The notes beneath the pieces are model-generated. The model worked only from the letters and a program-made list of their open reading frames with translations, made no database searches and was not told the origin of the DNA. A program made the position numbers and the translations under genes. Shown here piece after piece: positions 391 through 22,733 of a stretch of 44,646 nt of DNA (the stretch's first letter is position 1; each line of letters starts with the position of its first letter). The stretch is from Opitutaceae bacterium (lineage in GTDB: Bacteria > Verrucomicrobiota > Verrucomicrobiia > Opitutales > Opitutaceae): NCBI GenBank assembly GCA_016794725.1, contig JAEUGZ010000067.1, positions 1-44,646 of the forward strand. Direction: 5' to 3'.

Positions 391-2610
391 TCATTTGGGC
401 TGTAAGTCGATCCGCACGTCTCCCCCAGGCCATCCCTCGGGCAGGCGAAGCCTTCCATCGGGATCGGGGACCATCGCACGTCCATCGAGTGACGCAGTCG
501 TAATGGATCCGGAACCGGAGACGTACAGGTGGATACGACCGTCACGAAAACGGAGATCGGCGCGGCAGGGCGGCTGACCGGGAAACAGGGCTGGCTTGAT
601 GGACAATCGCCCGGACTCGAACCGAAGTCCCAGCAGATGACGCACGACAAACACGCCCACTTCGGCGGAGGTCCAAGGCAGAATTCCCGCTGTCGGTGCT
701 TGTGATCGGACAATTGGCACCTCCTCAAACCAGGCCCCGGTGCGGCCGCCTGGCACCTCGTGAAGCCAGCGGAGGGTGCGGCGGCTGCGCTCGAACAGCC
801 CGGCGTCGTGCTGGGCGCGTAGGATGAAACCGCTGGCGAATGTCCAGGGTCCAGGCTGGTCGCACTGCCCGCTCGAGTGGTAGCGTTCGTACCCGCCTCC
901 CCACCACCGCGCGCTCCATAGTTCCTCCATCGCAGCCAAGGTCGCCCGCCCGAGTGCAGATTCGGGCGGGACGATACCAAGCAGCAACGGCAGCATCGTG
1001 GAGGAGTCGGGCTCCAGCAGGTTGACGCGTTCGGCTTTCAAGGGAACGTCGGAGGCGGACGCCGGAAACTGCACGGTGCGCACGCGCTCTCCGGTCAGGG
1101 TGCGCCGCTTGATCAGCCTACCCTGATCCACCAGCCCGAAACGAGGGTGCCTCAGCACCGTCTCTTCCAGACCATCCGCCTCGGCCCTCCACCCGTCCGC
1201 CCTTTCCGGCACCCCGAGAGCCTGACTCAGGCTGGCGGCAGCACGCAGGCCTGAAATCAAATACGCCTGATAGGCGAGTTCGTATCCATCCTCGAGTGTA
1301 CGCTCCCAGAATTCACGGCGATTGTGCACCATGCCTCCCTGCCCGCGGTAGGCGGCACGCAGGGGCCGTTCGATCAAATTCACCAGTTTCTCCCGATGCT
1401 CGTGAACCAACGTTTCATCGCCGGCCCAGTCGCAATAAGCTTTCAGCGCCAGCAGCAATTCCCCCATTTGGTCGAACTGTTCGCGATCCGGATCCTCGAA
1501 CCGGCCGGCAATCATGGTATTGCCTTCCGGGTTCACCATCGCGGTGAGCACATGCGCCAGTGCGCTGCGAGCCAGCTCAAAGTGCCCGGTATGGACCAGA
1601 CCCATGACCGTGTTGGAGGTGTCACGCACCCACTGAGCACCGTATTCAAACATGCCGGCATCCATGACACCGTTGTCGGCCACCATGGCCGGGAGGCCGA
1701 TCCGGACCCGATCAAACAACTCTGCGACGACGGTGTCGTCCGTGGTTACCTGTGACGACCGCTTCCACTGCAGTTGCGTTTGCTCGAGTGCTTCCGCCCG
1801 GATGCGCCGGTCGGGAGGCCGGACCCCGAAGTCAAGTCCCACCCACGATTCAATCGTTGCCGTTTCCCCCGGGCCCAGCGGAATCGCTTCAACGTCGATA
1901 CCATCGACCCGGGGACGCAGCCGCCCTTGGGTCGACAGGACTCGCAGCCAGAGTGTCCCTCCATCATCCAGCGCGGTGGCGACCTCCTGACCGTTTTCCA
2001 CGCGACCCGCCGCCGGCAGGTGGAGCCGAACGCTGAGCGCCTCCGCGCCACCCAGATTGACGGACTTGAGTTCGACCTGTCGAAGGAGCACGCCATCATC
2101 AGCCAGGGCTGCGATGCGCTCGGTCACGAGCACTCCTCCCGCCCACCACTGGGCCTCGACCACAGGCACCCCCTGCCACCAGCACCATCGAGTCCTCGTT
2201 TGATGCCCCCAGGCCGTGAACACATGACCGCCCAGCACCACCTCCAATCCACTGCGGACGAACCCGTTCCCGTGATCGAAGTGAAAGGCGCGCTCCTTGC
2301 GTCCAGTTTGGCGATTATTCTGCGCGTCAAAGAGCAGGTAGAGAAACGAGGGTGCGAGGTCCGAGCGATCCGCCTGCACGATCATTTTTGCCCGGCCGCT
2401 CCTCAAAACGAAGTACTCTCGCCCCTCCACGAACGACTGCTTGAGCCAGCTCTCGAGCCCGGTTTCCCAGCGAGTCGAACCACCCGCGGCCTCCGCCGGG
2501 TCTGCCCCCAGGACGAAGCCGAACATCAATCCCAACGCTATCCACCTGCTCCCCGGCCGCTGTTTGAGGAGACATCGCCGTGGAGCAATCACGTCTCTCG
2601 CCGCGCTCAT
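391..2610 (-). CDS. Secreted six-hairpin glycosidase-like protein
   Basis: 739 residues. The N-terminus has a basic stretch, a hydrophobic core around residues 22-36 and an AEAAGG-type cleavage region, so it is probably exported. A beta-rich N-terminal part (about 45-290) precedes an alpha-helical part (about 300-650) with the WVRDTSNT, EGNTMIAGRFEDPDREQFDQ and WTFASGF segments typical of (alpha/alpha)6-barrel glycosidases (GH15/GH63/GH94-like superfamily). A small C-terminal beta domain (about 655-739) ends it. The exact GH family and substrate cannot be told by eye. Its ATG overlaps the stop of the upstream DUF1638 gene (ATGA at 2607-2610), so it is probably translated from the same mRNA as the UroD-family genes. 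Confidence 0.75.
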   Translation of the reverse strand: MSAARDVIAPRRCLLKQRPGSRWIALGLMFGFVLGADPAEAAGGSTRWETGLESWLKQSFVEGREYFVLRSGRAKMIVQADRSDLAPSFLYLLFDAQNNRQTGRKERAFHFDHGNGFVRSGLEVVLGGHVFTAWGHQTRTRWCWWQGVPVVEAQWWAGGVLVTERIAALADDGVLLRQVELKSVNLGGAEALSVRLHLPAAGRVENGQEVATALDDGGTLWLRVLSTQGRLRPRVDGIDVEAIPLGPGETATIESWVGLDFGVRPPDRRIRAEALEQTQLQWKRSSQVTTDDTVVAELFDRVRIGLPAMVADNGVMDAGMFEYGAQWVRDTSNTVMGLVHTGHFELARSALAHVLTAMVNPEGNTMIAGRFEDPDREQFDQMGELLLALKAYCDWAGDETLVHEHREKLVNLIERPLRAAYRGQGGMVHNRREFWERTLEDGYELAYQAYLISGLRAAASLSQALGVPERADGWRAEADGLEETVLRHPRFGLVDQGRLIKRRTLTGERVRTVQFPASASDVPLKAERVNLLEPDSSTMLPLLLGIVPPESALGRATLAAMEELWSARWWGGGYERYHSSGQCDQPGPWTFASGFILRAQHDAGLFERSRRTLRWLHEVPGGRTGAWFEEVPIVRSQAPTAGILPWTSAEVGVFVVRHLLGLRFESGRLSIKPALFPGQPPCRADLRFRDGRIHLYVSGSGSITTASLDGRAMVPDPDGRLRLPEGWPGGDVRIDLQPK

Positions 2611-3341
2611 GTCATGGAGATTCCCGACGTCGCGAGCATTCCATCGGGCCCGAGCTGCGTGGCCATTCCGGGAGCGAGCACCACAAACCGTTCGCTGTCC
2701 CAGGGTCCGGTCAACAACGCTCGCAACCAGCGATCATCGCCGCGGATCGACTCAAATCGCCACGAGAGGTGCTTGGCGCAGTCTCGGCAGTACGCTTCGC
2801 CGGCACGGTCACCGGTGATGTCAATGTAGGTGGCGCAGCCGTGGTGAACATAGGTCTCTCGATCCGCGGCCACCATGTCCTCGACCACGTCAGGATCATC
2901 CGGATAACGCTCCGCGTAGTGGGCACGGACTTTCGCCTCCCGATCAGGCCCCGGCACCCGCCGACCCCGGATCCAGCCCGGGCTGTAGAAGTAGACCCCG
3001 GGATTTGCGGCGAGGTAGCGTTCGTACGCAGGCCGGTCACCAAACAGGATTGAAATGCAGTCGTGGGCCCGCGGCAGCACGAGCCGGCACCGTTGGGATC
3101 GAATTCCAATCAAGCCGTTCCCGCACAGCCCATACGCCAGCAGGATGCTCGTCACAACGGGATCGGCTTCCAGGCGGTCAATCGCACCCTGGATGGCGAA
3201 CCTCATCTTCTCCGGGTGATCGTGCAATCCCATCTCCAACCAGGCCACGCGTGGTGGCGGGATCATCGGTGAACCGGCAAACAAGGCGGCAAACTCCGCC
3301 TGAAAAACATCGCAGGCCACAAGGGCGGTGGAGGGGCTCAT
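2607..3341 (-). CDS. DUF1638-family protein
   Basis: 244 residues from the ATG at 3341, chosen because it gives a 4-base ATGA overlap with the preceding gene and starts directly at the conserved strand (ALVACDVF). Cys/His motifs resemble DUF1638: LHDH at 39-42, YGLCGNGL at 70-77, RAHDC at 91-95, HHGC at 166-169 and CRDC at 185-188. These could bind a metal. DUF1638 genes are known mainly beside corrinoid-dependent methyltransferase genes in anaerobes and have no firm biochemical role. Here the gene lies between two UroD-family genes and a glycosidase-like gene, all leftward, and overlaps both direct neighbours by 4 bases. Confidence 0.7.
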   Translation of the reverse strand: MSPSTALVACDVFQAEFAALFAGSPMIPPPRVAWLEMGLHDHPEKMRFAIQGAIDRLEADPVVTSILLAYGLCGNGLIGIRSQRCRLVLPRAHDCISILFGDRPAYERYLAANPGVYFYSPGWIRGRRVPGPDREAKVRAHYAERYPDDPDVVEDMVAADRETYVHHGCATYIDITGDRAGEAYCRDCAKHLSWRFESIRGDDRWLRALLTGPWDSERFVVLAPGMATQLGPDGMLATSGISMT

Positions 3342-4363
3342 GGGGACAGGCTGGAGGACTGGAGTGGCCTGCAGAGGGTGTGCAGGTTCTCCAACGGCGT
3401 GCCGGAGGGCACTTCGCATCCGGCGCAGACCATGAAACGCTCGCCCGACACCCGCTGACAGCGACGCACCCCGTCGCTCACCTGGGCGACGCGTCCAAAC
3501 CGAAGGATGGACACGGGATCAAGATTGCCCGCCAGGACCACGTGCGGTGGGAAAACCGCTCGGGCCGCAGCCATGTCCACGACGTGATCGCAGTCCAGGA
3601 TATCGATCGGCAGTTTGCTCAGCTGGGTCCAGAGGTGACGCGTCGGACCGCAGATATGAAGCCTGACCCGAGCACCCGCCGCCTGGATGGCCTGCATCAG
3701 GCGCAGTTGCCGGGGGTAGATACTCTCGGCGTGGACGGGACCGCTGATTTGGCTGCAGACCGCGTCCCCGACCCCGATGGTGTCGGCCCCGGCGTCAATT
3801 TGAGCTCGGGCAAACCGAATCGAGGTCTCGGTGCACAGGTCCATCAGCTCTCCGGCCCAGGCCGGCTCCTCCAGCAAATCCACCAGAAACTCCGACATGC
3901 CGCGAAGGTCCGCCGCCAGCGCAGCGGGTCCCTCCACCCAGCCAAGAATACTGTAGCGATCACCCACCCGCTTCCGGTAGAGACGGACCGCCTCAATGCG
4001 GTCGCGCATGCGAGTCGACGTCAACGGATCCGGTACCGCGATCCGGCCGGCAATCGGTGCACCCGGCGCAAGGTCGGCCAACGGAGGTTTCACGCACTCA
4101 GGCACACCGTCGCGATGATAGCGGATCTCCGCGCCAAAGGCCGAGGTCTCGCGATAGGGGTCCGAGATCGTGCTGACCTGGTCCAGCTCAAAGTCCTCGG
4201 CGCAGCGCAGATTCGCCTCGACCAGGACGTGGTGATCCTTGGCGAACTCACCGTAGTGACTGCCGATGTACTCGGCGGCAAACTGCATCAGAATGGGAAT
4301 GCGGGGGACCACATCCGGCACGCCCCCTGACAAAACGGCATCGTATCGCTCGCGCGGAGTCAT
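3338..4363 (-). CDS. UroD-family protein, MtaA-like (HxC zinc motif kept)
   Basis: 341 residues, normal length for the uroporphyrinogen decarboxylase/MtaA/CmuA superfamily (PF01208, TIM barrel). Starts MTPRERYDAVL as family members do. His236-x-Cys238 (HICG) and CAGCEVPSGTPLEN at 313-326 match the His-x-Cys...Cys zinc site of MtaA/MtbA-type methylcobamide:thiol methyltransferases. True HemE is unlikely because the arginine-rich N-terminal substrate loop is missing and these zinc ligands are present. It may move methyl groups or act on a cofactor; the substrate is unknown. It overlaps the DUF1638 gene by 4 bases (3338-3341) and lies 90 bases after the second UroD-family gene. Confidence 0.75.
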   Translation of the reverse strand: MTPRERYDAVLSGGVPDVVPRIPILMQFAAEYIGSHYGEFAKDHHVLVEANLRCAEDFELDQVSTISDPYRETSAFGAEIRYHRDGVPECVKPPLADLAPGAPIAGRIAVPDPLTSTRMRDRIEAVRLYRKRVGDRYSILGWVEGPAALAADLRGMSEFLVDLLEEPAWAGELMDLCTETSIRFARAQIDAGADTIGVGDAVCSQISGPVHAESIYPRQLRLMQAIQAAGARVRLHICGPTRHLWTQLSKLPIDILDCDHVVDMAAARAVFPPHVVLAGNLDPVSILRFGRVAQVSDGVRRCQRVSGERFMVCAGCEVPSGTPLENLHTLCRPLQSSSLSP

Positions 4364-4453
4364 GGCGACGTTGGGAGGGCCCTGCGATCAGGCTTCGGTG
4401 GGTCGTCCTTTGCCGGTGAAGTCGACGCGACCGCGCGCTCCGCCGTCCGCTGA

Positions 4454-5521
4454 CTAGAGGTAATCGGCGCCATGGGCGTGGACGGTCTCAATCAGGGCAA
4501 ACACATTGTCGAGCGGAGTGCCCGCCTGGACGAAGTGGCAGGACGAGCAGATGTAGCCACCCCCGCGGCCGAGGGTTTCCAGGCAACGCCGGACCTCGGC
4601 GCGCACGTCGTCGGGCGTGCCAAAGGGGATCACCGACTGGTTTTCAACTCCTCCGTGAAACACCACGCGACTCCCGTAGGCGGCCTTCAGTCGCTCGCGG
4701 TCCATGCCCTTGCAGATATGCTGAATGGGATTCAGCACATCGATTCCGGCTTCGATCAGCGAAGGCACGAGGTCGAACGCCGCACCATCGGTGTGAAAAA
4801 GCACCTTGCGACCGTGGCGATGCACCACATCGCACCATACCCGCAGTCGCGAATCAAAGAGACGACGCCATGCGGGCAGTGAGATCAGCAGGCCTTCCTG
4901 CGAAGCCATGTCGTCGCTGATGAACACCAGATCGAGAAGTTCCCCCGTTTCCTTCAACAGTCGCTCCATCATCTCCGTCTGAATGCGTTGAATACGGTCC
5001 AACGCGGGTTCCAGAAAGTCCGGTGCATCGATGAGGTCCATCATCGCATTCTCCAGGCCGCGCAACTGGCAGTAGATCTCGAATACCGAAATCCAGGGTC
5101 CAATCGTGGCAAAACCCAGGTCGCGCGCCCGCCGTGCGAGTCGCAAGGATCCGGCGTAGTCAAAGCGCGAGGGATCCGGCCAGCGACTGTAGTCATCCAG
5201 CTGCCGCACATCCGACAGTTCGGCAAACGGGGGATTCATGAACTCCTCATACCGCGCTTTGCCCGCCTGAACGGAACGCGTCTCCACGCCCCAAATGGTC
5301 CGACCGGTTCCCTTCTCGGGATCGATGTCCTCACTCCCAAAGCCGGGAAACACCATGACAATCTTGTCCAGTCCGAACCGACGATAGACCTCCAACTCAT
5401 CCTCGCAGTTGAAGTGCCGTTTGGCATCGGCCAGCACCTCAGGGGAGAGCCAGATATCGACCGGGACCCGGTCGAGTGGACGACGATTCAAGGCAGCCAG
5501 GACGCGTTCGTGGGGGGTCAT
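4454..5521 (-). CDS. UroD-family protein, HxD variant
   Basis: 355 residues from the ATG at 5521, which gives the family-typical start MTPHERVLAALNRR; an open extension upstream has no family features. Fold-typical segments include ISDDMASQEG (201-210) and a C-terminal CSSCHFVQAGTPLDN (325-339). At the metal-site position it reads His243-Thr-Asp245 where the MtaA-like neighbour has His-x-Cys, so the two are paralogues with different chemistry rather than duplicates. First gene of the leftward cassette with the MtaA-like, DUF1638 and glycosidase-like genes. Substrate unknown. Confidence 0.75.
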   Translation of the reverse strand: MTPHERVLAALNRRPLDRVPVDIWLSPEVLADAKRHFNCEDELEVYRRFGLDKIVMVFPGFGSEDIDPEKGTGRTIWGVETRSVQAGKARYEEFMNPPFAELSDVRQLDDYSRWPDPSRFDYAGSLRLARRARDLGFATIGPWISVFEIYCQLRGLENAMMDLIDAPDFLEPALDRIQRIQTEMMERLLKETGELLDLVFISDDMASQEGLLISLPAWRRLFDSRLRVWCDVVHRHGRKVLFHTDGAAFDLVPSLIEAGIDVLNPIQHICKGMDRERLKAAYGSRVVFHGGVENQSVIPFGTPDDVRAEVRRCLETLGRGGGYICSSCHFVQAGTPLDNVFALIETVHAHGADYL

Positions 5522-5950: not shown

Positions 5951-6835
5951 ATGCTGCTTTTTCCCGGATCTTTCACATTCATTTCTGACGAAGTCTCTCA
6001 GGACGTTTCCCGCGTCATCGCGTTCGCTCAACGTCGAGGCATCACCGGCATCGAATTGCGCAGTATGTTCGGAAAGTCGTTTCGCGATCTCACTCCAGAG
6101 GATGTGAAGCAGATCAAGTCGCACCTTGCTGATGCGGGTCTCTCGGTCCATGGCTGCGCCACCCCGGTATTCAAGTGCGGACTTGACGATATCGCAGCAC
6201 ACCACGAGCACCGCGACGTATTCCGGAGGAGTGTGGACGTGGCCCTGACCCTGGGTTGCCCTCTCCTGCGGGTGTTCACGTTTCTCCGCAAACCTTCACC
6301 GCCTTCCCATGAAGACGTGATCCGAATCGCCGAGCACCTGATGTCACTGCTCGATCTTCTGCCGGAGGGTCTCCGACTCGGGGTGGAAAACGAGGCGTCC
6401 TGTCTCATTGGCACCGGTGCCGAGTCCGCCGCCTTGCTCGCCCAACTTCCCGATCCGCGCGTCGGACTCATCTGGGATCCCTGCAATGTCCTCTACATTC
6501 CGGAGCATCGTGGAGCCGCCACCGAAGGATTCGACCGTCTGGCAGCGCGTGTCGTTCATATCCATGCCAAAGATGCGGCTCGGACTGCTTCGGGGGTCGA
6601 GGCGCGGTGCATGGGAAATGGCGATGTCGGCTGGGCCCGGCATATCCGAGATCTCCACCAGTTCAACTTCCAAGGGCTCGTCTCGCTTGAAACTCATTGG
6701 CGGCGCCAGGCGCTCGACAGCGACTCCCTGCACCTGCCCGGAGGCTACCAGTTTTCGTTTGGTGGTGAAGAAGCCAGCGAGCTTTGCTTTGACGCCCTGC
6801 AGCGCCTCTTCATAGGCAGCGCTCCGGCACCCTAA
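5951..6835 (+). CDS. Sugar phosphate isomerase/epimerase-like TIM barrel protein
   Basis: 294 residues from the ATG at 5951. The frame stays open upstream, and an ATG at 5900 would add a short hydrophobic leader, so export cannot be ruled out. Signatures of the xylose-isomerase-like TIM barrel (PF01261): GITGIELR near the N-terminus, a metal-ligand Glu in GVENEAS, WDPCNVLY, HIHAKDA, and a GNGDVGW plus SLETHW ending. Members isomerise, epimerise or eliminate on free, phosphorylated or keto sugars and bind a divalent metal; the substrate is not readable here. Followed in the same direction by an alcohol dehydrogenase and a second TIM barrel of this superfamily. Confidence 0.75.
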   Translation: MLLFPGSFTFISDEVSQDVSRVIAFAQRRGITGIELRSMFGKSFRDLTPEDVKQIKSHLADAGLSVHGCATPVFKCGLDDIAAHHEHRDVFRRSVDVALTLGCPLLRVFTFLRKPSPPSHEDVIRIAEHLMSLLDLLPEGLRLGVENEASCLIGTGAESAALLAQLPDPRVGLIWDPCNVLYIPEHRGAATEGFDRLAARVVHIHAKDAARTASGVEARCMGNGDVGWARHIRDLHQFNFQGLVSLETHWRRQALDSDSLHLPGGYQFSFGGEEASELCFDALQRLFIGSAPAP

Positions 6836-8131: not shown

Positions 8132-9181
8132 GTGAACTCCATTCAAGGTCCAGGACTGTTCCTCGCCCAGTTCATCCGTGATCACGCTCCGTACCATTCG
8201 CTCGACGCCATCTGCCGGTGGGCCGCCTCGCTCGGCTATCGCGGAGTGCAGATGCCCGCCTGGGAGGCGCGCTTCATCGACCTTCCCCTCGCGGCGGAGT
8301 CACAGGCATATTGTGACGATTGGCGCGGCACCCTCGACCGACATGGGTTGCAGCTGACCGAACTGAATGCCGGCATCGCCGGGCAAGTGATGGGAATACA
8401 CCCTGCCTATGAAGTCGCCTTCCAGGCGTTCTATCCCCCGGGCTTGAACGATCTCGCGCGTGTGGAGTGGGCCACCGGACAACTGCGGCTTTCCCTGCGC
8501 GCCGCCGCGCGCCTGGGCACCACCTGCGTACCGGTGCTCTCCGGCGGGTTGGCCTGGCACCTGGCCTACCCTTGGCCGCAACGCCCAGCCGGCCTGATCG
8601 AGGAGGCGTTCCGGGAGCTGGCCCGCCGCTGGCGTCCCCTGCTCGACTACGCCCAAGAACTCGGACTGACCTTCGGCTACGAGTTGCACCCTGGCTCCGA
8701 TCTCTTCGACGGCAGCACGTTTGAGCGCTTTCTCGGCGCGGTGAACGAACACCCGGCCGCGGCGCTCAACTACGACCCCAGCCATTTTCTGCTCCAGCAA
8801 CTCGACTATTGCGATTTCATCCGCCGCTATGGCGCCCGCATCAAGGGCTTTCACGTAAAGGACGCCGAGTTTCGACCAGATGGCCGTTGTGGGGTCTATG
8901 GCGGATACGAACCCTGGGCCACCCGCGCGGGCCGGTTTCGTTCACCAGGAGACGGACAGGTCGACTTCAAGCGGGTCTTTACCCTGCTGACCGAGGTGGG
9001 TTATCGCGGTTGGGCGGTCATGGAATGGGAGTGTGCACTCAAGTCACCTGAACAAGGTGCGCGCGAAGGCGCGGCCTTCATCGCCCGGCATCTGATCGAG
9101 GCCTCTACGGTGGCATTCGACGACTTCGCGGGCGGGAACCAGGACGCAGGCATCAATCGACGTATCCTGGGACTGCCCTGA
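8132..9181 (+). CDS. IolE-like sugar isomerase/epimerase TIM barrel protein
   Basis: 349 residues from a GTG at 8132. This start is preferred over an upstream TTG at 8090 because the family begins with an xxIQGPGxFLAQF segment directly after the initiator. Metal/active-site segments: GYELHPGSD (Glu), NYDPSHF (Asp/His), GFHVKDAEF (His/Asp) and MEWEC (Glu), all as in PF01261 inosose-dehydratase/xylose-isomerase-like enzymes. The C-terminal extension (AFDDFAGGNQD) is common in this subgroup. It follows the dehydrogenase by 72 bases, so the two may share a transcript. Probably acts on a keto-sugar or cyclitol; the reaction is not known. Confidence 0.8.
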   Translation: MNSIQGPGLFLAQFIRDHAPYHSLDAICRWAASLGYRGVQMPAWEARFIDLPLAAESQAYCDDWRGTLDRHGLQLTELNAGIAGQVMGIHPAYEVAFQAFYPPGLNDLARVEWATGQLRLSLRAAARLGTTCVPVLSGGLAWHLAYPWPQRPAGLIEEAFRELARRWRPLLDYAQELGLTFGYELHPGSDLFDGSTFERFLGAVNEHPAAALNYDPSHFLLQQLDYCDFIRRYGARIKGFHVKDAEFRPDGRCGVYGGYEPWATRAGRFRSPGDGQVDFKRVFTLLTEVGYRGWAVMEWECALKSPEQGAREGAAFIARHLIEASTVAFDDFAGGNQDAGINRRILGLP

Positions 9182-9187
9182 GGCCTC

Positions 9188-9207
9188 TTGCCCAACCGAG
9201 CGGGCAA
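9188..9207. terminator. Weak hairpin between convergent genes
   Basis: TTGCCC (9188-9193) pairs with GGGCAA (9202-9207) across an 8-base loop, between the ends of convergent genes at 9181 and 9260. There is no clear U-run, so it is only a possible terminator. Confidence 0.25.
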
Positions 9208-9259
9208 AGTCACTCGCCGCCGCGACGGGAAACCTCCGCGATGACGTCACCTTCCATGG

Positions 9260-10126
9260 TCACGCCGTCCCGCCGGACGTAAGGCAGGACTCGATCGCTG
9301 ATTTTGGTACGCTGGCTGCAGTCGGAGCGGCAAGATGGCGCTCCGCCAACTGGCGCAGTTGGCTGAACTGGGCGTTCATGGCCTCCCGCATGATAATGAC
9401 ATCCGCCGCGTTGATCAGCCAGTTCATGCCCGCCGCCAGGTACCGCTCCAAGACATCCTCAGGCAGCCGGAGCAGCTGAAAGTGAAGCCCCACGCCAATC
9501 GACTTCGCCCGGCAACGACGAACCACCGACTCCACCGCGGCGACGAAGCGAGGATGGGTATATTCGGTCGGAATGCCCATCGAGGTGGTGATGTCGTGCG
9601 GCCCAAGGAAGACGGCATCGACACCTGGCACCGCCAACAGCTCATCCAGGCGTTCAATCGCAGGGACGCTTTCCACACCGATGATCACGTACTTGTCACG
9701 ATTGAAGGTTTCCAGGTAGCGGGAGGTGGCCTCGGGCAAGGCGACGCCTCGCTCGATCCAATCGTGCAGGAGCTGACCCTTGATGGGACGATACTTGACG
9801 GCTCCGACAATCCGGCGCACCTCCTCCACGGTCTCCACATACGGTACGACAATGCCCTCCGCCCCGCCATCCAGCATGGTGGCGATACTCACCGGATCGG
9901 GTGATGGAACCCGCACAATCGGGGAAATGCCCTTCGCCAGGTAGTACTGGCACATCATTCCCACCTCGGTCCGCCCCAAGGGAATGTGCTCGGTGCAGAT
10001 GAAGGCGAAATCCATCGCCATCTCTGCGGCAAGGGCTGCCGAAGTCGGGTTCATGAGGCTCAGAATGTGGGTTCCGACCACACATCGACCCTGGTGCAGG
10101 TTCTCTTTGATTTGGAATCCAGTCAT
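9260..10126 (-). CDS. HpcH/HpaI-family aldolase
   Basis: 288 residues from the ATG at 10126 (MTGFQIKENLHQG), normal length for the family; upstream codons look non-coding. Signatures of 2-keto-3-deoxy-acid class II aldolases: DFAFICTEH near the N-terminus, a GAEGIVVPYVET loop, the metal-ligand Glu in IGVESVPAI and the Asp in FLGPHDITTSMG. Such enzymes cleave 2-keto-3-deoxy sugar acids or 4-hydroxy-2-oxo acids to pyruvate plus an aldehyde with a divalent metal. It would suit the end of a non-phosphorylative or keto-sugar pathway fed by the neighbouring isomerases and dehydrogenase. It is transcribed leftward, divergent from the DUF1080 gene. Confidence 0.85.
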   Translation of the reverse strand: MTGFQIKENLHQGRCVVGTHILSLMNPTSAALAAEMAMDFAFICTEHIPLGRTEVGMMCQYYLAKGISPIVRVPSPDPVSIATMLDGGAEGIVVPYVETVEEVRRIVGAVKYRPIKGQLLHDWIERGVALPEATSRYLETFNRDKYVIIGVESVPAIERLDELLAVPGVDAVFLGPHDITTSMGIPTEYTHPRFVAAVESVVRRCRAKSIGVGLHFQLLRLPEDVLERYLAAGMNWLINAADVIIMREAMNAQFSQLRQLAERHLAAPTAASVPKSAIESCLTSGGTA

Positions 10127-10271
10127 GTTCAAGGGCTCAGCCGGGTCCCCACGTGGCACTCCATCGGGCGATCCAGCACTTGCCACGGAAGCGTCACCTC
10201 GCCAGCCGTTCTCATCAAGGACACTGCACTGGTCCGAACTCCTAACCTGATTCCCATCACCTCAACCGGGC

Positions 10272-10285
10272 AACAAACGGTTGTT
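10272..10285. promoter_or_regulatory. Short symmetric site in the aldolase/DUF1080 divergent region
   Basis: AACAA-ACGG-TTGTT, a 5-base inverted repeat with a 4-base centre, lies in the 261-base gap between the leftward aldolase (start 10126) and the rightward DUF1080 gene (start 10388). It shares CGGTTGTT with the palindrome at 8096-8114. Candidate operator; short enough to be chance. Confidence 0.25.
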
Positions 10286-10387
10286 TCGCGCCGGAGTCGC
10301 CGCTAGGGATTCTTTTCGTGGCTTCCTGGCCACACCAGTTCCCAAGACCTAGATTCTCCGCGGCCGCCGCACTGCCCCCATGCCCTC

Positions 10388-11176
10388 ATGAACAGATTCT
10401 ATCCCTTCATCAGCGCGACCCTGACCCTGATTTCGATTCCGCTGACCATGGGCGCACAACCGCCAGCGGCGGCAGAGGTCGTGTCGCCCGCCTACGTCCC
10501 CCGGCAGAGCGATCGACCCCTCCCGCTCGTGGGCGAGGAGCCGGGATTCAGGTCCATCTTCAATGGAGAATCGCTTGAAGGGTGGCAGGGGGATCCAACC
10601 TACTGGCGAGTCGAACAGGGATCACTCGTGGGCGAAATCCGACCGGAAACGGTCATCAAGAGCAACACGTTCATCATCTGGACGGGCGGCAAGCCGGGAA
10701 ACTTCGAGCTCAAGCTCGACTACCGCATTTCCACCGCGGGCAACAGCGGCATCAACTACCGCAGCCAGATCGTGCCCGACACCGTCACTCCGACCAACGC
10801 CTTCGCGATGCGCGGTTACCAGTGTGACATCGACGGACGCAAGCGGTACGTGGGAAACAACTACGAAGAAAAAGGCCGTCTCTTTCTCGCCGTGCGCGGC
10901 CAGCTCACACGGGTGGTCGGCGGAAGACCGCCCATCCTGGTCGCCCAAATCGGGGACGAGACGGAGCTCGCCCGGGTCGTCTCCGATGATTGGAACTCCG
11001 TCCACCTCATCGTGCGCGGAAACCAGCTCACCCACATTGTCAACGGACGCGTCATGAGCGTGGTGCTCGACGATGATTCCGCCCACCGACCGGTCGATGG
11101 ACAGATCGGCGTGCAGGTCCACGTCGGGCCACCGATGAAGGTGGAGTATCGAAATATTCGACTGAAGACGGAGTGA
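10388..11176 (+). CDS. Secreted DUF1080 protein (3-keto-disaccharide hydrolase-like)
   Basis: 262 residues with an N-terminal signal sequence (hydrophobic residues 5-22, cleavage near MGAQP). One DUF1080 (PF06439) laminin-G-like beta sandwich spans about 52-260, beginning FRSIFNGESLEGWQG and containing NFELKLDYR, GNSGINYRS and DWNSVHLIVRGNQLTHIVNG, all hallmark strands. Characterised relatives hydrolyse 3-keto-glycosides after a sugar hydroxyl has been oxidised. Isomerase-like TIM barrels, a dehydrogenase and an aldolase in the preceding 5 kb fit such a route, but no Gfo/Idh/MocA oxidoreductase is in this window. A second, diverged DUF1080 gene lies at 35500-36282. Confidence 0.85.
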   Translation: MNRFYPFISATLTLISIPLTMGAQPPAAAEVVSPAYVPRQSDRPLPLVGEEPGFRSIFNGESLEGWQGDPTYWRVEQGSLVGEIRPETVIKSNTFIIWTGGKPGNFELKLDYRISTAGNSGINYRSQIVPDTVTPTNAFAMRGYQCDIDGRKRYVGNNYEEKGRLFLAVRGQLTRVVGGRPPILVAQIGDETELARVVSDDWNSVHLIVRGNQLTHIVNGRVMSVVLDDDSAHRPVDGQIGVQVHVGPPMKVEYRNIRLKTE

Positions 11177-11223
11177 GTCCAGCGCCCCACAGAGGCCGAC
11201 CGCTACGGCCAACTGCGCCCCCC

Positions 11224-12027
11224 TCACCGGGCAACTTCAGCTGCGAGGCGATCGAGGTTCTGCTCGTTCGATGGTTCGACAATCGGACGGACCACGCTTG
11301 CCACCGACGGATCATCGAAGACCTGCTCCCAGGCAATTCGGGTGCCCGTGGTGGTCTTTTCGAGTAAAAGGGTGAGGACAAACGTCGGTGCAGAGATGTG
11401 TCGGATCACGATCCGCCGATTCGCGTCGATCGTGTCGAAGACACACTCATTGGGGTAGATGCGGCCGTCGGGCCCAATCATCTTGAAGACCCACTTGCCG
11501 TTGGGCCTGAACTCAAACGAGTCGAATGTGTTCGTGAAGCCATGCGGGCCCCACCACCGCGCGAGGCGGACCGGATCCTGCATGGCCGCAAACACCTGAG
11601 CGGGAGACGCAGCGAGATCTCGCATGGTCTGAAAGGTACTCGCAGCCCGGCGGCGGACCTCGCTCTGCCTCACCATCTCGCTCAAGTCGGCGGCGGGTCG
11701 GATTTCCCACGGTCCGAACTTCGCTCCCGGGTGCTTTGAAATCAATTCGACCGCATGGTCGAGGTCGCGCGCCTCGAGGATCAGGATGCCGCCGAGCTGC
11801 TCCTTGCTTTCTACAAACGGCCCGTCCGTAGCCACCACCCGACCGTTGGCATACCGCAATGTCTTCGCCGTCTCCGGCGGTTGCAGCGCTTCGCCGCCTT
11901 TGAAATGCCCGTTTGCACGGAGCTGATCGTCGTAGATGAAGCAGCTGTCCATCATTGCCTGTTGATCGGCCACCGGAGCGGCGGCGAAGGCATGGGAGTC
12001 AATATAGCCGAGACAGATGAATTTCAT
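11224..12027 (-). CDS. YCII-domain/SRPBCC (AHSA1) fusion protein
   Basis: 267 residues from the ATG at 12027 (MKFICLGYID). Residues about 1-120 are a YCII/DGPF-type domain: SCFIYDDQLRANGHF, then VVATDGPFVESKEQLGG and a closing GAKFGPWEIRP. Residues about 130-267 are an SRPBCC/AHSA1 ligand-binding fold: SPAQVFAAMQDPVRLARWWGP, FDSFEFRPNGKW, and a GTRIAWEQVFDD strand. The domains are usually separate proteins, both often encoded next to ECF sigma factor genes; here they are one chain, and no sigma factor gene is visible nearby. Function unknown, probably small-molecule binding or stress related. Confidence 0.8.
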   Translation of the reverse strand: MKFICLGYIDSHAFAAAPVADQQAMMDSCFIYDDQLRANGHFKGGEALQPPETAKTLRYANGRVVATDGPFVESKEQLGGILILEARDLDHAVELISKHPGAKFGPWEIRPAADLSEMVRQSEVRRRAASTFQTMRDLAASPAQVFAAMQDPVRLARWWGPHGFTNTFDSFEFRPNGKWVFKMIGPDGRIYPNECVFDTIDANRRIVIRHISAPTFVLTLLLEKTTTGTRIAWEQVFDDPSVASVVRPIVEPSNEQNLDRLAAEVAR

Positions 12028-12105
12028 GGTGAAAAGGGAGACGGGCCCGGAATTGAGCACGGTTCACGACCTAGCCGAACAACCGGAACCCATTTCGACA
12101 CCGCT

Positions 12106-12123
12106 GGCGCGAATTTTCGCGCC
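12106..12123. promoter_or_regulatory. GC-rich palindrome upstream of the YCII-SRPBCC gene
   Basis: GGCGCGAATTTTCGCGCC: 8-base arms GGCGCGAA/TTCGCGCC around a TT centre, 79 bases upstream of the leftward start at 12027. As DNA it could be a dimeric repressor site. A 2-base loop is too tight for a full RNA hairpin, so a terminator role is less likely. Confidence 0.35.
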
Positions 12124-12133
12124 CAAGCCACGA

Positions 12134-12165
12134 TTGAACCGCGGAAGGACACGGATCGCCACGGA
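12134..12165. repeat. Degenerate half copy of the dispersed inverted repeat
   Basis: TTGAACCGCGGAAGGACACG and the following ATCGCCACGGA match one arm of the elements at 18489-18634 and 21172-21310 (TTGAACCACGGATGGACACG type). No matching right arm is found nearby, so this looks like a decayed or truncated copy. Confidence 0.5.
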
Positions 12166-12422
12166 AATGAATCTCAATTGCAGATTCAAGGCCGCAAGCG
12201 GTACACGAGTGTCTCCCCACGTTTCAGATTCCTACCTGACCATTTCCAGTCAGTGACTTACGATACATTGTCCGTCTCCGCCTTCCCGTGCGGTTCCATC
12301 AGGAGCACGCCCTCCCGTGCACGCGATCGGGCACACGAGCCCTAAGACGCAACTCGATCGACGCGCCTGCGGGTCATTCGTATTCAACTGAAACCGCCCA
12401 GGCCAACGGCAGGATTCGAAGG

Positions 12423-18665: not shown

Positions 18666-20315
18666 TCACGGCACCGATCGTAGCTCGGGACTGCGATCGA
18701 CCACGAGACCGGTGACATCGGGCTTCACCACCCATGGATTGCGCTCCGCACCGGAAAGGCGCACGGACGAAAACTCAGCGCCTTTCACATCTTCCAACAT
18801 CATCACCGGACGGAGATCCGGTTTCTCGAAGCGCATCTCGATGCGGTGGACGTTGAGGTTGGCTGCGTGCCGCACCCAGAGACCGGACGCAGGCATCACA
18901 CCCCAGTAGGTCGGCTCCGGGTAGCCGCGCTCATCCTCGGGCATCGCGCGTTCACCCTGTTCCTTCGTGCCGCCGCCAAGATAGCCGAGGTAAATGTTTT
19001 CCAACCACAGGTCTTCGATCGGATGACCCGGCAGTCCGGCGATCAAGATGCCGCCCTCCGCCGAGACGTTGTGCGCGATGATGTTCGAAATACGAATGCG
19101 CCGGGCCTTGCCGACGTTCGTGCCTTCCGGGGCGCGCAGCCGCGCGCCGAGGCGGACGTAAATCGGTGCGTTGAGCACATCGCGCAGAGTGAGGTTGGTG
19201 ATTGCGATGTCTTCGAGCAGAGCCCCGTCAACGCTTTCCAGGGCCAGTCCACGGGAGTAGTCGAAAACGCAGTTCGAGATCGTGATGTTGCGGAAACCGC
19301 CGTTGGATTCGGTGCCCAGCTTGATGCGCCCGGTAGGACGGTCCTCGGTGTATCCGCGCACCCGACGCGAACGCGTGCCATCGAGGAGCGAGCCCTCATC
19401 ATACCCGCTGACGTGACAGTTGGTGATGGTGACATTCTCCGTCATACGCGCGTAGCCGAGTCCGTAGCTGCTCTTGAGGCAGATCGCGTCGTCGTAGGGC
19501 GCGTTGACGGTGCAGTTGCTCATGCGGACATTCTGGCAGGCGTCAATGTCCACGCCGTCGCGGTTGGTATCGATACGAAGATTGTCGATCGTCCAGTTGT
19601 CCACGCCGGTGGCGAGGATCGCGAAGTGCCCGCCGTGATAAATCGTGAAGTCGCGAAACGTGACATTGCGGCAGTTTTTCAGAGCGATGGCCTTGTTGCC
19701 GACCCCGGCGGGCAGCGAGTCCTTGCCGGGATGCCCGAACGGTCCGGGTTTGATCTCCGCGAGCCGTGCCAGCGCGGCAGCGGGCAGCGCGAGATCGGGA
19801 CGCTTTTCTCGAGATCGCTCCTCCGGAAGGAAGTCGCGGCGCCGACCGCGATCCCCGCGACTCAGGCCGCGTCCGTAGATTGTGCCCGGCCCGATGATGC
19901 TCACATCGGTCACGCCCTCGCCCCAGATCAGGCTGTTGCTCCAGTGCGAGTGACCGAAGTCCTGATACTGGTTCACGCCATCGTTCGGCTCCGGCGCGTC
20001 GTAACCGACAGAGAGATCCGGGCTCGGCTCTGCGGCGATCAACGTCGCGCCCGGCCCGAGGTGCAGCGTCAGGCGACTGCGCACCTGCAGTGAAAAGCTG
20101 AGGTAATTGCCCGCCGGAAAGAAAACCGTTCCACCACCATCGGCCACCGCCGCCGAGATCGCGCGGCGGATCGCGGCGGTGTCGTCGGTCGCACCGTCGC
20201 CTCGAGCACCGAACTCCCGTACGTCGACTGGCTTCGCGGCGAGCGGGCCGCGCACCGCAACCGCCACAAGTAGAAGCCCGACTGCCCATCCAGGGCGGAA
20301 ACAAGATGTGATCAT
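18666..20315 (-). CDS. Secreted GH28-family (polygalacturonase-like) glycoside hydrolase
   Basis: 549 residues with a signal peptide (hydrophobic 10-25, cleavage near PLAAKP). The mature start VDVREFGARGDGATDDTAAIRRAI is the pectate-lyase superfamily opening of right-handed beta-helix enzymes. GH28-like catalytic segments follow in order: NRDGVDIDACQNVRMSNC, YDDAICLKSS with the paired Asp residues, and RIKLGTESNGG. The usual NTD is NRD here. Likely hydrolyses galacturonan or a rhamnogalacturonan-type polysaccharide in the periplasm or outside. It lies upstream of the SSS transporter on the same strand and shares its candidate operator, suggesting a pectin-use regulon. Confidence 0.85.
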   Translation of the reverse strand: MITSCFRPGWAVGLLLVAVAVRGPLAAKPVDVREFGARGDGATDDTAAIRRAISAAVADGGGTVFFPAGNYLSFSLQVRSRLTLHLGPGATLIAAEPSPDLSVGYDAPEPNDGVNQYQDFGHSHWSNSLIWGEGVTDVSIIGPGTIYGRGLSRGDRGRRRDFLPEERSREKRPDLALPAAALARLAEIKPGPFGHPGKDSLPAGVGNKAIALKNCRNVTFRDFTIYHGGHFAILATGVDNWTIDNLRIDTNRDGVDIDACQNVRMSNCTVNAPYDDAICLKSSYGLGYARMTENVTITNCHVSGYDEGSLLDGTRSRRVRGYTEDRPTGRIKLGTESNGGFRNITISNCVFDYSRGLALESVDGALLEDIAITNLTLRDVLNAPIYVRLGARLRAPEGTNVGKARRIRISNIIAHNVSAEGGILIAGLPGHPIEDLWLENIYLGYLGGGTKEQGERAMPEDERGYPEPTYWGVMPASGLWVRHAANLNVHRIEMRFEKPDLRPVMMLEDVKGAEFSSVRLSGAERNPWVVKPDVTGLVVDRSPELRSVP

Positions 20316-20571: not shown

Positions 20572-21171
20572 TCAACCAGGCCGCCCATACCTTTCAGAAC
20601 CGGGGTTCACCGGTCCAGCCCCATGGGCTCAGCCGATTCTGGCCCGGAAGCCGCAGGAACTTTCAGGTAATGGAGGGCAACTTCGGCGAGAAGTCGCCCC
20701 GCCCTTCTGAAAAGTCCCTCCCGCGGGTCAAGGCTGGGTAGAAGGGCTCACTGCCTCCGTCGGGTTCGCCGTCACATCCGCCACTGACACACGGTCGCTC
20801 CCAAACACCTGGGAGCGTTTCAACGCCCCTGCAAACGGGATCCGCCCCCACTGATCGTTCTGTTTGCGAGCAGCGACTTACCGCAGTCTCGGACAGTGGA
20901 TTCCGACGTGGGAGAGCCATGAGTACGGTCACACCGCCATGGAATCAGATTTGCGCCAGTTTCAGCTCAGGACGTAGCCTCAATCACCCCGTCCCGCGCC
21001 CGCCTTGCTTGGGACTGCCGCTATCCTCTTGGTTCTCGATGTTGCCGCCCGCTTCATATTCAATCGATGACGACGCGCCGTCAGAGAAGCAGTGTGGGGC
21101 CCACCGCGCGGACTGTGATTTCTCCGCGGCGAGGCAGCGCGACTTTCAAACTATTACCGCAGCTGAAGACA

Positions 21172-21310
21172 ATCGATCCGTTCATAAACCACGGATGGAC
21201 AAAGATAAACGCGGATCCGGAGCAGGCATGGTCGTCACTCATCAGTTGAATACTAGCTTTGGCGTAACTCGTTTGTATCCGCGTCGATCCGTGTCCATCC
21301 GTGGTTCAAT
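21172..21310. repeat. Inverted-repeat element 3 (CGGAT-type), upstream of the sulfatase gene
   Basis: AACCACGGATGGAC at 21187-21200 has an exact inverted partner, GTCCATCCGTGGTT, at 21293-21306. Outer and inner sequence aligns with element 2 in opposite orientation: ATCGATCCGTTCAT at the left end, and CAAACGAGTTACGCCAAAG on the reverse strand in the middle. It ends 37 bases before the sulfatase ATG, so if transcribed it would fold in that leader. Confidence 0.85.
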
Positions 21311-21347
21311 TGCGGATTTTGGATTCAATCTCCCACGACCACACACC

Positions 21348-22733
21348 ATGAATCGGAATTCCTCCAGGCCATGCCGCATCACCACTTTCTGCGCCCTGTT
21401 TCTCATCGGAGTGATCCTACAAGGGACAGCCGCCCGCGGCGCCCGCCCGCTCAACCTGGTCGTCCTCTACGCTGATGACTGGCGCCACGACACCCTCGGG
21501 GCGGCCGGTCATGCGGTGGTCAAAACTCCACATCTGGACCGGCTCGCGGCGCAAGGCGTCCGCTTCACTCACAACTATGTGACCACGTCGATTTGCGGAG
21601 TCAGCCGCGCCACGCTTTTCACGGGGCAGTGGATGTCGCGCCATGGCAACTCCGCCTTTGGCGCCTTCAAGACCCCCTGGGAGGAAACCTATCCAGGAAT
21701 GCTCCGCTCCCACGGCTACCACGTCGGCCACGTCGGCAAATGGCACAATGGCAAATTTCCGGGTGACCGTTTCGACTTCGGCCGCTCCTATTCCGGGACC
21801 TACTGGATGACCGCGCCCGATGGCAGCAAGATTCATGTCACCCAGAAGAACGAGGACGACTCGCTGGAGTTCCTCCGTTCCCGGCCCCGAGAGAAGCCCT
21901 TTTGCCTCACGCTCGCGTTCTTTGCCACCCATGCCGAGGACCAGAATCCCCTTCAGTACCTGCCGCAGCCTGCGAGTCTCGCACGCTACGAGGGACTGTC
22001 CATTCCAGTCCCTCCCACGGCCACCGATGAGGCGTTCCGCCGCCTGCCCGCGTTCCTGGCCAACGAGAAAAACGAGGGTCGGAACCGCTGGCACTGGCGT
22101 TTCGACACACCGGAAAAGTACCAGACGATGATGAAGAACTACTACCGGCTTGTCACGGAAGTCGATGCCGTGTGCGGCCGGGTGATGGAGGAACTTCGCC
22201 GGCAGGGCGTACTTGAGCAGACCCTGGTAATCTTCACCGGCGACAACGGGTATTTCCACGGCGAACACGGACTGGCCGACAAGTGGTACCCCTACGAGGA
22301 GAGCATCCGCACTCCGTTGATTGTCTGGGATCCCCGTTTGCCGGCCGATCGGCGCGGTCGCACGAACGGGTCCATGACTCTCAACACCGACCTCGCTCCC
22401 ACCCTGCTGGCCGCCGCGGGACTGCCGGCACCGCCCCATGCCCAGGGTTCGGACCTGTCGCCGTTGTATCTAACGGAACCCCACGCCGCCTGGAGGACGG
22501 AGTTCTTCTACGAGCACGCAACCCTTCGAGACCCGTCCTTTATTCCCTCCTCCGAGGCCCTCGTGCGAAAAGAAGAGAAGTACATCCTGTGGCCTGATTT
22601 CGGTCGGGAGCAATACTTCGCCCTACGCGACGATCCGTACGAGCAAAACGACCGGATCGGCGACCCGGCGCTGCAGTCGCGTATCGCGGACCTGCGGCGA
22701 CGATTTGCCGAGCTGAAAACAGCAGCCCGCTGA
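21348..22733 (+). CDS. Secreted type I sulfatase
   Basis: 461 residues from the ATG at 21348, which opens a signal peptide (hydrophobic 11-27, then AARGARP). The frame is open further upstream but runs through the repeat element, so the later start is preferred. Metal ligands: Asp43-Asp44 (YADDWRHD) and the [10 protein letters not shown] loop. The formylglycine site is Cys83-Gly-Val-Ser-Arg87 in [14 protein letters not shown]: Cys and Arg are kept, but the usual Pro/Ala at +2 is Val. Overall shape (about 460 residues, [15 protein letters not shown]) fits glycan sulfatases that desulfate algal or animal polysaccharides. It needs an anaerobic- or FGE-type maturase encoded elsewhere. Confidence 0.88.

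Follow-up and report, generated by a model that had tools for sequence, protein, structure and literature searches.

The window, that is, the whole 44,646-nucleotide stretch of DNA analysed here, is contig C256 of the 6.78 Mb, 641-contig genome (G000) of an Opitutaceae bacterium. It carries a leftward cassette of two UroD-superfamily genes (uroA and uroB), a DUF1638 gene and a hydrolase gene. The cassette is likely to provide the substrate-specific enzymes and the helper of a corrinoid-dependent methyl-transfer system, the core of which is encoded on other contigs. The genes and overlaps of the cassette, in order of transcription, are as follows (aa, amino acids).

4454-5521, minus strand: uroA, 355 aa; UroD-superfamily methyltransferase (PF01208), predicted MT1 (substrate:corrinoid) with O-methyl-type site
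3338-4363, minus strand: uroB, 341 aa; MtaA-like UroD methyltransferase (PF01208) with thiol-type site, predicted methyl-corrinoid:thiol methyltransferase or S-demethylase
3338-3341, minus strand: ATGA stop/start overlap of uroB and the DUF1638 gene, seen in the sequence and kept in L177
2607-3341, minus strand: DUF1638 protein (PF07796), 244 aa; predicted corrinoid-reactivation accessory
2607-2610, minus strand: ATGA stop/start overlap of the DUF1638 and hydrolase genes, seen in the sequence and kept in L177
391-2610, minus strand: probable secreted glycoside hydrolase, 739 aa, weakly glucoamylase (GH15)-like by sub-threshold NCBIfam matches

Gene order and conservation of the cassette

An earlier note on this DNA had described four leftward genes with two ATGA overlaps, and all of its gene and overlap coordinates were confirmed; the hydrolase gene (391-2610) falls outside the interval 2607-5521 given there. 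A gap of 90 bp separates uroA from uroB, and the first overlap to be transcribed is that of uroB with the DUF1638 gene. All four genes, their order and both overlaps were found again in a close relative, an Opitutaceae metagenome-assembled genome (locus L177), with protein identities of 82% (uroA), 84% (uroB), 77% (DUF1638) and 70% (hydrolase). Since order and both overlaps recur at 70-84% protein identity, the cassette is not a chance arrangement of open reading frames.

Family and metal sites of UroA and UroB

Both proteins matched PF01208 (URO-D) above the cut-off of 23.9 bits (uroA 86.7 bits, uroB 184.6 bits). The metal-site motifs were His243-Thr-Asp245 plus C328-H329 in uroA and His236-Ile-Cys238 plus C316 in uroB, in agreement with the difference noted earlier between the paralogues (His243-x-Asp245 against His236-x-Cys238). 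These residues did not vary among orthologues: H243, D245, C328 and H329 were invariant in 13 uroA and H236, C238 and C316 in 12 uroB orthologues (window protein counted in). UroA carries Asp245 where the His-Cys-Cys zinc triad has its first Cys, and the triad is present in uroB only. Judged by family match and conserved metal-site residues, both are putative UroD-superfamily methyltransferases. S-methyltransferases of this superfamily are His-Cys-Cys, and O-methyl enzymes swap one or both Cys for carboxylates or non-ligands (PMC10418091); because this published rule can be applied to the motifs, uroB is predicted to have a thiol-type and uroA an O-methyl-type metal site.

The AF2 model of UroA (pLDDT 90) had its best Foldseek matches in MtaA (4ay8/4ay7, E 2e-15) and, by VIA-align, about 310 of its residues aligned with members throughout the UroD family (Z 27-29). 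UroB is 26% identical to MtaA over 224 positions. The curated NCBIfam cut-off for MtaA/MtbA was reached by neither protein (uroB 140.8 bits with mtaA_cmuA against a subfamily cut-off of 235.4 bits; uroA 49.3 bits). An identity as HemE was ruled out: with TIGR01464 uroB scored 60.4 against 302.95 bits, uroA was unlisted, and the UroD protein of contig C508 matched far better. The C508 protein (378.8 bits with PF01208) is by its sequence probably the uroporphyrinogen decarboxylase (hemE) of the genome.

Corrinoid components elsewhere in the genome

Profile searches of the genome gave eight URO-D, three B12-binding_2, one DUF1638 and two RACo matches, with PF02607 corrinoid-protein matches on contigs C391, C464 and C605 only. 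As stated in the earlier note, no corrinoid protein or RACo was found in the cassette or the rest of the window; the genome-wide matches all lie on C391, C464, C605 and C281. On C464, a UroD gene shares its strand with the gene for a corrinoid protein of 226 aa, and the two face RACo and another UroD gene on the opposite strand. C391 carries a UroD gene, a corrinoid protein gene and the start of MetF, and C281 carries the end of the same MetF followed by a methyl-tetrahydrofolate (THF):corrinoid methyltransferase (MT2), an amidohydrolase and RACo. The two contigs (loci L013 and L071) overlap inside MetF and thus form one operon (UroD-corrinoid protein-MetF-MT2-amidohydrolase-RACo); an uninterrupted operon of this type in the relative G288 (L262) confirms the join. 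A separate full MetH is encoded on C605, with a C-terminal region that looks activation-like by eye. The search for corrinoid proteins outside the window, which the earlier note had proposed, therefore yielded two stand-alone proteins (C391, C464), together with two RACo, one MT2 and MetF, all off the window contig. The close relative that keeps the four cassette genes also has the same split corrinoid loci.

Undivided clusters and co-occurrence in relatives

Gene neighbourhoods were compared at 80 named loci and at 40 DUF1638 loci taken from Verrucomicrobiota genomes other than this one. A corrinoid protein, RACo, UroD or MtaB was encoded within 9 kb at 61 of the 80 named DUF1638 loci (RACo at 48, corrinoid protein at 38). 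In an Opitutales metagenome-assembled genome (L178), a single cluster reads MT2-amidohydrolase-corrinoid protein-uroA-uroC464a-uroB-DUF1638-RACo, with identities to the window-genome proteins of 54% (uroA), 53% (uroC464a), 59% (uroB) and 51% (DUF1638). The order in L060 is uroB-uroA-AraC-corrinoid protein-UroD-CobW-DUF1638-RACo, and L180 and L182 have similar undivided clusters. These corrinoid-linked UroD and DUF1638 clusters support the one-carbon or demethylation module proposed in the earlier note. L059, where DUF1638 stands alongside a corrinoid protein, RACo and MtaB, shows that DUF1638 is not confined to a single substrate. In L189, L195, L203 and L213, arrays of diverse UroD paralogues (up to about ten) surround a single corrinoid protein, DUF1638 and RACo; many methyltransferases may there share one corrinoid protein. 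The L199 locus of Ereboglobus sp. PH5-10 carries DUF1638-RACo together with MetH.

Among 288 Verrucomicrobiota genomes, 74 encode DUF1638; RACo accompanies it in 72 of them and occurs in 105 genomes overall (hypergeometric p ~3e-39, an indicative value that treats genomes as independent). DUF1638 and RACo were both present in every one of the 14 genomes that encode a close uroA orthologue. In the DUF1638 tree, the window and L177 proteins fall inside a clade of 11 rows (support 100/100) that contains the eight rows labelled as integrated type, and this clade is separate from the DUF1638 of C464-type loci. At C464-type loci in relatives (L189, L195, L203, L213 and others), DUF1638 lies between corrinoid protein and RACo; it is absent from the C464-type locus of this genome and of G288.

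DUF1638 protein

The window protein matched PF07796 with 117 bits (gathering cut-off 27) and is the single copy in the genome. Residues C10, E16, H40, C73, H93, D94 and C95 are invariant or nearly so and look like a metal or thiol site. Fusions of DUF1638 to CobW/G3E GTPase domains were found in L066 (9417-11015, minus strand) and L183 (1788-3377, plus strand), a CobW-like N-terminus in L210 (225-1817, plus strand) and separate CobW genes preceding DUF1638 in L060 and L180; these fusions and neighbours suggest a part in metal or corrinoid handling. COG0523 (CobW) genes also adjoin corrinoid methyltransferases in methanogens (PMC2770081). DUF1638 is fused to hydantoinase-A-type (ASKHA-like) domains in L086 (9284-12163, plus strand) and L094 (9113-12115, plus strand). 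A DUF1638-profile match in L246 (5359-7389) was a hydantoinase-type protein with no Pfam DUF1638 match and was excluded from the DUF1638 alignment.

The DUF1638 model (pLDDT 95) had no PDB match at Foldseek E <=0.001, and its best VIA match, a nitrogenase-like DPOR chain (Z 6.3, root-mean-square deviation 3.6, 96 aligned, residues 1-99), is in the noise range, so that no fold is claimed. Searching the PDB by sequence with DUF1638 and with the hydrolase yielded no useful match. Price and co-workers showed that Phaeobacter requires a DUF1638 gene and a RamA-like gene to make methionine by the B12-dependent route, and they proposed nothing specific for DUF1638 (PMC5764234); later proteomics tied DUF1638 and a RamA-like protein to glycine betaine demethylation (PMC12478193). 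The best guess for its role is metal or corrinoid handling during activation.

Proposed working and origin of the split

The His/Asp site of UroA would bind an O-methylated compound, whose methyl group would be transferred to the Co(I) of a corrinoid protein; that of C464 is the likeliest partner. At the His-Cys-Cys site of uroB, the methyl group of methyl-Co(III) would be passed to a thiol, e.g. homocysteine; alternatively, the MT2 of C281 could pass it to THF for MetF. Oxidised Co(I) would be re-reduced by RACo (C464 or C281) with DUF1638 as a required helper, a role suggested by genomic association with RACo and by analogy with the need for DUF1638 that others showed in Phaeobacter methionine synthesis.

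The window cassette would go back to an undivided operon from which the genes for corrinoid protein and RACo disappeared, and the C464 locus would have lost its DUF1638, after which the single remaining DUF1638 was left to serve all corrinoid proteins. This is the simplest account of the split, with the direction of events presumed. The cassette has probably been displaced from a corrinoid methyltransferase system of a type already known; its genomic split is unusual.

Neighbouring genes, hydrolase and substrate

Beyond uroA, the window carries the following genes, all of which are kept in L177 at 77-93% identity.

5951-6835, plus strand: xylose-isomerase-like TIM-barrel protein (PF01261, Pfam), divergent; 77% identity and equivalent position in L177
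7031-8059, plus strand: zinc alcohol/polyol dehydrogenase (threonine-/keto-inositol-dehydrogenase-like); 93% identity in L177
8090-9181, plus strand: isomerase/dehydratase-like TIM barrel (distant IolE match); 91% identity in L177
9260-10186, minus strand: HpcH/HpaI-family 2-keto-3-deoxy sugar-acid aldolase-like protein; 89% identity in L177

The uroA orthologues of other lineages stand beside other glycosidases (GH106 in L157, GH78 in L164 and L166) and, in L160, near GH38, a sulfatase and a sugar transporter. A link of the cassette with sugar catabolism is plausible from these glycosidases and from the divergent genes for a dehydrogenase, an isomerase and an aldolase, which are conserved. 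Tentatively, and with more doubt than confidence, the substrate is taken to be a methylated sugar or cyclitol; the secreted hydrolase would supply part of it, and the products of the divergent genes would process it. In the literature searched, nothing was found on corrinoid demethylation of methylated sugars or inositols, an absence that is not proof.

For the secreted glycosidase described in the earlier note, secretion is probable, the 739-aa protein having a signal-peptide-like start; as to the enzyme family, there was no Pfam match and the GH15-like family score was 21.2 against a cut-off of 820.7 bits. Glycosidase is thus a probable label for the 391-2610 product, with no family assignment attached.

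Two further observations concern genes adjoining uroA: in L166 a fatty-acid-desaturase/Rieske/ferredoxin-reductase fusion (Pfam; 10036-12330, minus strand) and in L186 a protein that resembles this fusion, judged on its first residues only (8696-10822, minus strand). The window also has pectin-type glycan genes, as it encodes a rhamnogalacturonidase (BT4146-like, above cut-off; 18666-20315, minus strand) and an arylsulfatase-like protein (20919-22733, plus strand).

Weighing of the interpretation

Several points weigh against a split corrinoid system acting on sugars. The cassette itself has no corrinoid protein, so the partner has to be inferred, and most of the uroA and uroB orthologues fetched lie apart from corrinoid genes (L157-L165, L167, L169-L176); some of these could have another role. 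The third metal ligand of UroA is ambiguous (C328 in one alignment, H329 in another). Evidence on the substrate is indirect. The four-gene order, which the earlier note had suggested looking for in other Verrucomicrobiota, holds in L177. Outside that relative the hydrolase hardly occurs, the 288 genomes giving one distant match; for the proposed action on O-methylated sugars released by the glycosidase, the sugar link is plausible, but the hydrolase is a conserved partner in the close relative only. A rhamnosidase (PF17389) occurs within ~9 kb at 3 of 14 uroA loci against 0.45 expected (p 0.011), a modest excess in a post hoc test, PF17389 having been chosen after the loci were seen.

The alternative that survives best places uroB and DUF1638 in methionine or methyl-thio metabolism (type 1 mlp or a split methionine synthase), with the sugar genes unrelated; it is a serious possibility, if not the favoured one. 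The His-Cys-Cys triad of uroB under the S/Se rule (PMC10418091), the requirement for DUF1638 in B12-dependent methionine synthesis (PMC5764234) and a homocysteine S-methyltransferase gene beside corrinoid protein and uroA in L186 all speak for it, but in uroA an Asp replaces the Cys ligand, the sugar-catabolic block is kept with the cassette in L177 and the genome has a separate full MetH. Demethylation of plant methoxyaromatics (lignin-type) rather than sugars, as by OdmB/MtvB/MtoB systems, appears unlikely: methoxyaromatic O-demethylases of the UroD superfamily are known (PMC13222342) and uroA has a carboxylate at its metal site, yet the neighbouring genes are of sugar and not aromatic type.

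The earlier note had concluded that the module does not use the standard corrinoid set, and the UroD proteins might indeed shift methyl groups in a MetE-like manner: MetE has the same fold, the cassette lacks corrinoid protein and RACo, and many uroA and uroB orthologues are remote from corrinoid genes. This was rejected as improbable because the corrinoid set (corrinoid proteins, RACo, MT2 and MetF) is present in the genome and because relatives cluster uroA, uroB and DUF1638 with corrinoid protein and RACo in undivided form; DUF1638 is, moreover, almost restricted to RACo genomes. That the cassette is a decaying, functionless leftover of an undivided operon would agree with the loss of corrinoid protein and RACo from the locus and with its derivation in the DUF1638 tree, but is scarcely credible: the frames are intact, motifs and overlaps are conserved, L177 has the genes in identical order at 77-84% identity, and the cassette holds the only DUF1638 of the genome.

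A wider proposal, that in Verrucomicrobiota UroA is a corrinoid O-demethylase for methylated sugars or cyclitols in glycan- and polyol-catabolic loci, with a core provided in trans and an essential part for DUF1638 in corrinoid activation, is offered as a doubtful but possible extension of the split corrinoid system. For DUF1638, on which methionine synthesis with B12 depends in another phylum and for which the literature found assigns no mechanism, the cassette offers a testable setting: a single genomic copy, apart from the corrinoid protein and RACo that it probably serves.

Comparison with known systems

The system resembles MtaABC, OdmABCD/MtvABC, MtgBC and CdmBCA in its UroD-fold methyltransferases and in having a corrinoid protein, RACo and a THF methyltransferase in the genome. 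It differs from three-component systems of the MtaABC type in that the substrate-side genes and DUF1638 are separated from corrinoid protein and RACo, and in that uroA and uroB score under the curated MtaA cut-offs. Corrinoid protein, RACo and MT2 are thus all found in the genome, and the cognate corrinoid protein, missing from the cassette, would act in trans.

With the split methionine synthase of Phaeobacter and Ruegeria (PMC5764234, PMC12478193), the system shares the tie of DUF1638 to a DUF4445/RACo protein and to corrinoid methyl transfer, whereas here DUF1638 overlaps UroD and hydrolase genes and is remote from RACo. Type 1 mlp gene clusters (PMC10418091) likewise have several MtaA-like UroD proteins, and uroB shares their His-Cys-Cys site; in contrast to their grouping of Mlp2, Mlp3, corrinoid protein and Ram in one cluster, corrinoid protein and RACo (Ram) here lie on other contigs, the second UroD protein has Asp for Cys, and DUF1638 and sugar genes are present.

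In marine bacteria, 6-O-methyl-D-galactose is demethylated oxidatively by a P450 (PMC10033563). The goal, removal of a methyl group from a methylated sugar, may be common to both routes, but the P450 is an oxygenase that releases formaldehyde and uses no corrinoid. In the literature found, the demethylation step for methyl sugars is otherwise met only as P450 chemistry, and the UroA route, if the proposal is true, would be its corrinoid counterpart.

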